Shown here: positions 2,653 to 4,598 of the stretch, one piece after another
How the letters are laid out: each line of letters starts with the position of its first letter
Numbering within the stretch: position 1 is the first letter of the stretch
Virus record (IMG/VR): IMGVR_UViG_3300005833_000002
Span: 1 to 20,882 of that record
From: a virus
Strand: one strand, 5' to 3'
Length of the DNA: 20,882 bases
Program-made: the position numbers and the translations under genes
The notes under the pieces: generated by a model
Database searches by the model: none
Seen by the model: the letters and a program-made list of their open reading frames with translations, nothing else
Told to the model about the DNA's origin: nothing

Positions 2653-3455
2653 TCATTGTACCCCCATCCGTTGTGTTGCCGCAAGCGCGCCAGCAAGCCC
2701 GGTGTCCGGCGCCAAGTGAGCGTAGCGCAAGGTCGTCTGCGCCTTGCGGTGCCCGAGCAGGCGCCCGACGATGTCCAAACCCACGCCGGCGGCGAGCGCG
2801 CTGGACGCAAAGGTATGCCGCAAGTCGTACATCCGCGCGACGGGCACCCCCGCAGCGCGCAGGATCCGTACCCAAGCCCGGCGAAGGTCCATGCCGGCCG
2901 GGAAATATCGCCCGTTGACCACCGTCAGATCGTCTAGGATCGCGCAGGCGGCGGGCGGCAAGTAGACCGTCCTGACCCCCGTCTTGCTGTCTGGAAGCTG
3001 TAGAACGCTGCCGTGGCGCGCCCCGAATCCAGAAGTTCCGAGGGTCGAGCTCCGGTCAAGAGGCACAGGGCGACGTACCGGCCCCGGATGTCGGGGAAAG
3101 CCAGCGCGGCGGCATGGATGGCCTGGGCGTCGGCCGGCATGTAGAAATGCTCCCGGTGCCGCTCCGGGTTGCGCCTAACCCCGGTGCAGGGGTTGGCCGG
3201 GATGAACCCCCTGGCGACCGCGTAGCCCAAGGCCGCGGAGAGCAGCGCGAGGGCGCGGTTGGCCTGGACCATAGCGGTTTGCTTGTCGTGCCAGTCCTCC
3301 ACCGTCGAGAGCGTGATGCTGGCGATCGGCAAGGCGCCGAAAGTGGGGAGCAGGAGGGTATCGGCCAAGCGCGTGTACTCCGCGACCGTGCGCGGCTTCA
3401 GGTGCCGGCGCATGTGCGGGAGGTAGCGATTGGCGAGGATGTTGGCGAGGGTCAT
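2653..3455 (-). pseudogene. int: Tyrosine integrase, broken by a frameshift and probable deletion
   Basis: Site-specific recombinase that would integrate or excise the phage DNA. The first frame starts at the ATG 3455-3453 (GGAGGGAGA just before; ATGA overlap upstream). It holds the SAM-like core-binding domain (RTVAEYTRLADTLL, TVEDWH) and catalytic TGARPSELL, Arg137, before running out of frame. The second frame, shifted by one base near 3010-3030, supplies LQLPDSKTGVRTVYLP (catalytic Lys), YDLRHTFAS (Arg box, with Tyr where His is usual), LLGHRKAQ and the nucleophile in TTLRYAHL, ending at 2653. Joining the frames at the GGGG run gives ELLDSGARHGSVLQL. That lacks the usual L-R-W-x-D-I-D strand and is about four residues short, which fits a real deletion of about 13 bp better than a single-base sequencing error. 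As written, no intact integrase can be made. Confidence 0.85.
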
Positions 3456-4066: not shown

Positions 4067-4318
4067 TCAGCGCGCCGTAACCCGCACGTCCAGCAGCTTC
4101 CATTTGTCGTACGGCAACATCTCGCCTTCGTGCTCGACGTAGCAACCACCGATCCAGCGGAAGTCGGTCTTGCGCTTGGTGACTTCGCCCAGGTTGGTGC
4201 ACTCGGCCTTGCTGAACCAGGCGTTGAGCGCGACCAGCGGCCCGATCACAAAGCAGATGGCGAACGCACAGATGACAAGCAGCATTATAAAGCCTACAAC
4301 ATCTTTCAGAAAGTTCAT
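4067..4318 (-). CDS. Small membrane-anchored phage protein
   Basis: A protein of 83 residues. The ATG at 4318-4316 follows GGAG by 8 nt and lies about 25 nt after a predicted transcription start. Residues ~9-33 form one hydrophobic membrane segment (GFIMLLVICAFAICFVIG). The remainder has two cysteines in A-E-C-T-N-L-G and G-G-C-Y-V-E, ending with LPYDKWKLLDVRV. A single TM helix followed by a small Cys-pair domain of this form is seen in other prophage small proteins of unknown role. The same open frame continues upstream through the terminator and candidate RNA; I treat that extension as chance. Confidence 0.75.
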   Translation of the reverse strand: MNFLKDVVGFIMLLVICAFAICFVIGPLVALNAWFSKAECTNLGEVTKRKTDFRWIGGCYVEHEGEMLPYDKWKLLDVRVTAR

Positions 4319-4349: not shown

Positions 4350-4378
4350 ACTATACAGGAAGTCGGCGCAAATGAAAA
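4350..4378 (-). promoter_or_regulatory. Promoter for the small membrane-protein gene
   Basis: -35-like TTTTCA (4378-4373, four of six consensus bases), a 17-nt spacer and -10 TATAGT (4355-4350). The -35 box uses the T-run of the terminator just upstream. Predicted start near 4343, about 25 nt before the ATG of the gene at 4067-4318. Confidence 0.55.
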
Positions 4379-4563
4379 GGCCCGACTTTGTGGGCCGGGC
4401 CTAGTATCGCCGCGTTGTAGGCGTTGCTTGAGTGCAATGCTGTTGGGCGCCTCGTTTAGTCCGTTCTCGAATCTCGGGCTAGTAGATGGATTCTCAGGCC
4501 CACCGTCCCGCACGCTTAACGACCCGTCTGACCCTTTGCAGCAGACGGACTCCCACAGCGACA
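4373..4563 (-). ncRNA. Candidate structured small RNA or attenuated leader, about 190 nt
   Basis: A non-coding stretch bounded by a consensus promoter (4570-4598) and an intrinsic terminator (4378-4402). Possible helices: CAGACGG with CCGTCTG (4542-4548 with 4524-4530, 11-nt loop); a long-range AGTCCGT/ACGGACT pairing (4545-4551 with 4458-4464) that competes with it; GGGC/GCCC around 4476-4503; and AGGCG/CGCCT (4419-4423 with 4448-4452) enclosing TTGC/GCAA. No Shine-Dalgarno plus start codon gives a convincing peptide. I do not recognise a known RNA family. It could be a trans-acting phage RNA, or a leader whose terminator controls the membrane-protein gene downstream. Drawn from motif reading only; no folding or covariation was computed. 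Confidence 0.5.
4378..4402 (-). terminator. Intrinsic terminator of the candidate RNA
   Basis: On the minus strand, AGGCCCG/CGGGCCT type 7-bp GC-rich stem with an 11-nt loop, followed directly by a T-run (TTTT) and CATTTG. It separates the promoter at 4570-4598 from the gene at 4067-4318. Confidence 0.75.
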
Positions 4564-4569
4564 ACTCAC

Positions 4570-4598
4570 ACTATACGCACTTCCGCGCTAGTTGTCAA
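4570..4598 (-). promoter_or_regulatory. Strong consensus promoter, TTGACA-N17-TATAGT
   Basis: Minus-strand -35 TTGACA (4598-4593), exactly 17 nt, then -10 TATAGT (4575-4570). It matches the sigma70 consensus at 11 of 12 positions. Predicted start near 4563. Half-sites GACAAC and GTTGTC (4596-4591 and 4565-4560 on the minus strand) flank it as an inverted pair 31 bp apart centre to centre. The promoter begins 14 nt after the stop of the HExxH gene. Confidence 0.85.

Follow-up and report, generated by a model that had tools for sequence, protein, structure and literature searches.

A candidate family of compact, pseudoknotted noncoding RNAs in uncultivated phages, with members located at tRNA genes

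A predicted RNA gene in an uncultivated virus probably represents a new family of compact, pseudoknotted, trans-acting structural noncoding RNAs (ncRNAs) of phages. The window (i.e., the whole stretch of DNA analyzed, IMG/VR virus record IMGVR_UViG_3300005833_000002, 20,882 bases) encodes an integrase, a DNA polymerase, primase-like replication genes, a metallophosphoesterase, and a holin. The family has been found in no fewer than 14 distinct uncultivated phages, and its members are about 120 to 190 nt long with a core of 98 to 148 nt. In the following sections, we describe the gene in the window, its homologs, the helices supported by covariation, and the genomic contexts of the copies.

RESULTS AND DISCUSSION

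A predicted RNA gene with a promoter and a terminator

Directly behind the stop codon of a gene encoding an HExxH protein, the minus strand of the window carries a sigma-70-type promoter (TTGACA-N17-TATAGT, 11/12; positions 4570 to 4598), with hexamers at 4598-4593 and 4575-4570. Promoter-like sites scoring at least 9/12 numbered 3 in 3 kb, versus 0.7 expected. The start predicted from the -10 box (~4563) coincides with the outermost 5' base of helix P1 (see below), and a hairpin resembling an intrinsic terminator (9-bp stem with 7 G-C pairs, 7-nt loop), followed by TTTT, lies at 4378 to 4402 (minus strand). The predicted transcript is thus ~190 nt long (4373 to 4563, minus strand). The near-perfect promoter and the GC-rich terminator with its T-run had both been noted in the initial annotation, and both are present. 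A second promoter, described there as serving the next gene, is also found (4350 to 4378, minus strand), but it is weak (TTTTCA-N17-TATAGT, 9/12). The downstream membrane-protein gene starts with an ATG at 4318, preceded by the ribosome-binding site GGAG.

A protein product of this region is excluded. Scored against the codon usage of this phage, every frame between 4564 and 4319 was negative, with a best value on the minus strand of -0.37 bits/codon, while the two flanking genes scored +0.37 to +0.47 bits/codon; the earlier view that no credible protein gene exists here is borne out. An 83-codon open TTG frame ahead of the membrane-protein gene also scored negative and was rejected as a chance opening. 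A conserved peptide is ruled out by these scores together with the lack of any reading frame common to the homologs. Single-sequence folding of the window RNA gave no sign of unusual stability (z = -1.0; 31 of 200 shuffled sequences folded equally well). Because the folding energy is unremarkable and no known RNA family matches, the case for an RNA rests on comparison with homologs.

Several other features of the window were recorded. Inverted repeats, which may be operators or chance occurrences, surround the -10 boxes of the RNA-gene promoter (GACAACT...AGTTGTC; 4598-4560, minus strand) and of the second promoter (GACTTC...GAAGTC; 4367-4338, minus strand). The integrase gene (2653-3455, minus strand) is split into overlapping frames (2934-3455 and 2653-3066) and is continuous in the homologs of loci L002 and L019, so that the split reflects either a frameshift or a sequencing error. 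L002 (6364-6397), L004 (7452-7489), and L019 (7129-7164) contain near-consensus sigma-70 promoters in which only ~6 to 9 nt separate the -10 box from a start codon, and the window has the same arrangement at 4046-4010. In L002, L004, and L019, this arrangement suggests leaderless mRNAs on the lysogeny side.

Homologs in uncultivated phages

Homologs were collected by DNA-pattern scans of IMG/VR, using patterns derived from the window and from one homolog, L038. The first pattern, representing the best hairpin (GTCCGTCTG-N11-CAGACGG), retrieved 6 viral contigs. One of these, L038, matches the window far beyond this pattern, including a hairpin CGAGGCG...CGCCTAC whose loop differs in length (local E = 2e-10). 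The second pattern, taken from the 3' block, recovered L044 and L045, in which the stems of the 5' hairpin differ in sequence yet stay complementary. The third, from the 5' half, retrieved 35 contigs; the 3' block AACGAGGCG..CGCC, which lies outside this pattern, was present in all true matches and missing from the remaining contigs, which are coding sequence. A scan with the pattern GAGAACGGACTAAACGAG gave no match. Because the patterns fixed some conserved bases beforehand, conservation inside them is partly a product of selection. After exclusion of near-identical copies, the family contained 14 distinct sequences (the window and 13 further homologs), and each of the 14 parent records tested carried a single copy.

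A covariance model (R1) was built from ten homologs with the window left out of the seed. In a search of 643 kb of phage DNA, R1 matched the window at 4407 to 4561 on the minus strand (80.3 bits, E = 2.5e-21), and the match includes helices P1, P2, P3, and P4 and the conserved blocks that define membership in the family. The same search gave 20 matches of at least 61.7 bits, with the next best at 21.1 bits. Three further homologs that had been left out of the seed (L066, L079, and L072) scored 61.7 to 80.5 bits.

The family is rare: exact patterns found it in about 20 contigs among 2.9 million. No copy was found by blastn in 50,697 phage records, and none matched in 72,556 plasmids; in a leave-one-out control with the same database size, 14 of 14 sequences were recoverable from the other 13 (E values of 3e-5 to 1e-28). 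Given its rarity, absence of the family from cultivated phages is unsurprising by itself. No similar RNA was found in the literature text.

The proteins encoded around the RNA in the window did not lead to further copies. With the HExxH and membrane proteins as queries, no loci in viral contigs and no syntenic phage were found. The metallophosphoesterase query returned 26 loci (the closest 78% identical), all lacking the new RNA, and nothing among genome contigs. The region from the metallophosphoesterase gene to the integrase is a mosaic, and phage relatives sharing the replication genes of the window lack the RNA, which is the pattern expected of an accessory gene.

Conserved architecture and covariation

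From the 5' end, the common order of elements is the 5' strand of P1, GAG, a strand S, the loop CUGC(or CUAC)AAAGGGU, S', CGNNAAGCGUGCG, and the variable hairpin P3; the 3' half continues with CGAGG, S'', AACGAGGCG, a loop UCCA..., ACGCCUAC, and the 3' strand of P1. In the window, where all elements lie on the minus strand, the closing helix P1 is formed by UGUCGCUGUG (4554 to 4563) and CGCGGCGAUA (4405 to 4414), as supported by folding and covariation. P1 has no sequence conservation, and all seven of its pairs show double changes. The invariant GAG (4550 to 4552) separates P1 from the switch strand S. P2 pairs CCGUCUG (4542 to 4548) with S', CAGACGG (4524 to 4530), around the almost invariant loop CUGCAAAGGGU (4531 to 4541); this helix is 100% paired in every sequence, with compensatory double changes in four of seven pairs. 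The conserved AAGCGUGCGG (4508 to 4517) forms the 5' side of the entry to P3, a variable hairpin CGGG...CCCG followed by conserved CGAG (4473 to 4510). The conserved sequence of P3 is AAGCGUGCG...CGAGG; pairing in P3a is limited to 62.5% of cells. P4 is a hairpin AGGCG...CGCCU within the conserved block AACGAGGCG...ACGCCUAC (4419 to 4452); because it is nearly invariant, P4 alone says little.

Compensatory changes in the helices were found in the alignment of homologous loci. In the ten-sequence alignment, 86.4% of pair cells held standard pairs, versus 74.7% after shuffling; doubly changed cells numbered 37, versus 13.6 in shuffles, and the covariation score was 0.394, versus 0.155. When partners were slid by one column, pairing fell to 35 to 40%. 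We also compared each strand paired with its own partner and with partners swapped among the 14 distinct sequences (20,000 permutations; floor, p = 5e-5). P1, P2, and the alternative helix P5 each reached the floor, and pairing of the P2 loop with the P4 loop gave p = 0.005. The complementary segments pointed out in the initial annotation are therefore real by the evidence of the homologs, folding energy by itself having been insufficient.

Additional hairpins were observed outside the core in two copies. On the minus strand of L055, ~60 to 80 nt upstream of P1, a second hairpin (GUAUCUG-CUACAA-CAGAUAC) repeats the end of the P2 stem together with the first half of its loop, like a copy or decoy of P2. 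L055 and L074 both have an outer helix of 16 to 19 bp and a GNRA-type hairpin ahead of P1.

Alternative pairing of P2 and P5 and a loop-loop contact

The 5' strand of P5, AGUCCGU (4545 to 4551, minus strand), consists of AG and the first bases of S, and pairs with S'', ACGGACU (4458 to 4464, minus strand). About four bases are shared with the 5' strand of P2. P5 is more than a shadow of P2, since the first base of S, which is unused in P2, covaries with S''. When complete, P2 and P5 are mutually incompatible, which implies two states or a three-way junction with a movable branch point. Forced folds under energy models made P5 about 1 to 11 kcal/mol less favorable than P2, and P5 is short in L044, L077, and L072; the switch may therefore be a partial three-way junction. 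The RNA may be a two-state switch, in which the 5' strand of P2 would swap to the far strand to give two alternative folds. Given the complementarity of the P2 and P4 loops, the two could kiss either in cis, closing the RNA, or in trans, linking it to further copies.

Genomic contexts and contact with tRNA genes

The flanking genes vary among copies, which supports the independence of the RNA from its neighbors. Packaging genes are near 3 of 14 copies: in L038 and L076, the RNA follows the terminase gene and precedes the portal gene, whereas in L044 it lies behind the portal gene. It is downstream of a T7-like RNA polymerase gene in L056/L082 and L074 and beside AAA/PDDEXK nuclease (recombination) genes in L059 and L079. 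In L066, the RtcB gene (PF01139, E = 2e-111) has its stop codon a few bases ahead of the RNA.

Contact with tRNA genes was observed for 5 of the 14 copies. A tRNA-Pro gene starts about 8 to 9 nt after the RNA in L066, and the RNA begins 2 nt after tRNA-Pro in L076. On the minus strand of L079, tRNA-Met ends at 1366 and tRNA-Leu starts at 1210, and the RNA fills the whole 155-nt gap. These adjoining tRNAs are the sole tRNAs in the 16 kb around the three copies. In L059, the core is flanked by the two portions of a tRNA-Leu-like gene, the acceptor/D part and the T arm/acceptor part, at the position expected for the anticodon arm; tRNA-like arms are similarly arranged around P1 in L058. In both cases, the arms lie around the core, not inside it. 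The L066 contig, which encodes RtcB, the new RNA, tRNA-Pro, and a GIY-YIG protein, also carries a type II hammerhead ribozyme at 179-242 (Rfam RF02276, 52.7 bits). The region behind the RNA in L038 (4820-5360) contains several stretches that resemble tRNAs in having T-arm sequences and matching acceptor ends but that ARAGORN did not call.

The borders of the RNA agree in two unrelated contexts, since the predicted +1 in the window and the tRNA ends in L079 both coincide with the ends of P1. Only the window yielded a clear sigma-70 promoter, with a weaker one in L044, so that the RNA may belong to longer transcripts in other phages. Where the module lies exactly between tRNAs in tRNA operons, it would be freed by the usual processing of the tRNAs. 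A dedicated promoter in one phage and a location in tRNA operons in others point to an autonomous RNA that would act in trans.

Comparison with known RNAs

An Rfam 15 scan of the window and 12 homolog loci, in which membership required a score at or above the gathering threshold of a family, reported only tRNAs and the remote hammerhead and nothing for the new RNA; permissive scans of three copies yielded chance-level matches below threshold only. The families covered include GOLLD, ROOL, pRNA, tmRNA, group I and II introns, ribozymes, and 6S RNA. The statement that the RNA belongs to no known family therefore holds. Models of a betaproteobacterial toxic small RNA and of Trp_leader weakly resembled the terminator through a shared GC-rich hairpin only. 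For group I introns, tmRNA, prohead RNA (pRNA), Y RNA, and attC-like sites, either the model match or the defining sequence was missing.

GOLLD and ROOL are phage and prophage ncRNAs of unknown function that often lie near tRNA islands and contain pseudoknots and kissing loops (PMC12286853). They are nearest in kind to the new RNA, which is likewise noncoding, located near tRNA genes in some copies, and equipped with complementary loops; the resemblance is one of genre, and the RNAs are unrelated. GOLLD and ROOL are ~600 to 800 nt or more and form cages of 8 to 14 copies, whereas the new RNA is 120 to 190 nt long (~190 nt predicted in the window, which falls short of the ~600 nt or more that accompanies their family folds), and neither model gave a sequence or covariance match.

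Bacterial Y RNAs (YrlA, in rsr-yrl-rtcBA RNA-repair operons) share with the new RNA a closing helix, tRNA-like surroundings, and, for one copy, proximity to RtcB. In contrast, the new RNA has no Rfam match to Y RNA, no adjoining Ro60/Rsr gene was seen, its core holds no T-loop-like sequence, and RtcB adjoins only one copy type. In L058 and L059, a large structured RNA stands where a tRNA-like molecule would have its anticodon arm, which recalls tmRNA, but neither ARAGORN nor Rfam found a tmRNA and no tag reading frame is common to the family. The window RNA lacks the acceptor and T arms and the tag frame of a tRNA or tmRNA, in agreement with the earlier remark that it is not a tRNA. The class is new at the level of the RNA family, and the broader genre has precedents. 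The stand-alone structured phage RNA of ~190 nt (predicted) first proposed for this locus is upheld by homolog covariation, the lack of a family match, and the lack of a common frame.

Possible modes of action

The window belongs to a temperate-type phage in which the RNA would have its own gene: host RNA polymerase would start at ~4563 and stop at the terminator (4402-4378), and P1, the P2 hairpin, P3, and P4 would fold around nearly invariant unpaired bases. Conservation of such bases across unrelated phages implies an active site or a conserved partner. The contact with tRNA genes hints at a partner in translation or tRNA metabolism without demonstrating one, and our guess is that the target is connected with one or the other. 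A catalytic or switching phage RNA embedded in tRNA operons and tRNA bodies, alternating between P2 and P5 and acting on tRNA or translation, perhaps with RtcB as a partner, is conceivable and on balance unlikely. Such an RNA might, for example, inhibit a host RNase or an anti-phage nuclease or serve as its decoy.

We consider it unlikely that the RNA is a ribozyme (self-cleaving, self-splicing, or self-circularizing, with RtcB-type ligation in some phages), the active site of which would be the nearly invariant unpaired bases GAG, CAAAGGGU, AAGCGUGCG, CGAGG, and AACGAGGCGUCCA. About 45 columns are invariant or nearly invariant across many phage types, the P2/P5 overlap resembles strand exchange, the RNA is inserted in tRNA-like genes, and one copy follows RtcB on a contig with a hammerhead elsewhere. 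However, no Rfam ribozyme matched even below threshold, the link to RtcB is confined to that copy type, and the window RNA, having its own promoter and terminator, has no exons to join.

An intron-like mobile element inserted in hairpins or tRNA anticodon loops, with P1 as a target hairpin outside the element, would account for the unconserved sequence of P1 and for the core that replaces the anticodon arm in L058 and L059. We regard it as quite improbable: removal of the core from L059 leaves no usable anticodon loop (U33 is missing), no group I or II intron matched, the unit stands alone in the window and between complete tRNAs in L079, and each phage has one copy.

The initial annotation had offered a leader with attenuation as an alternative, and a cis-acting leader, attenuator, or riboswitch of the membrane-protein gene would suit the order of promoter, structured RNA, terminator, and gene in the window, as well as the two alternative folds typical of such switches. 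The comparison lends this reading no support, and it is now highly improbable, because the genes behind the RNA change and tRNAs often follow it: the downstream genes are unrelated among homologs, a tRNA directly follows the RNA in L066 and L079 (the latter copy lying between tRNAs, the former behind the RtcB stop codon), the next gene in the window has its own weak promoter-like site behind the terminator, and neither P2 nor P5 takes in the terminator hairpin.

A packaging RNA that forms a ring through kissing loops, like the phi29 pRNA, can scarcely be the explanation: the general anatomy is the same (a 5'/3' closing helix and a pair of loops complementary over 4 nt) and terminase or portal genes flank the three copies mentioned above, but the Rfam pRNA model does not match, most copies sit in other modules, and the new family has long invariant blocks, whereas pRNAs lack strong sequence conservation.

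The preferred reading thus remains a structural ncRNA that would act in trans, neither by coding nor as a leader, most likely on a partner linked to tRNA or translation. Structured RNA families with covariation-backed pseudoknots are seldom found, and the present one lies outside both the family library and the 50,697 phage records. It is common to unrelated phages, and it is short enough for in vitro work, probing, and crystallography. Through its association with tRNA genes, it bears on the question of how GOLLD, ROOL, and other RNAs of tRNA islands serve phages, at a size that is far more tractable.
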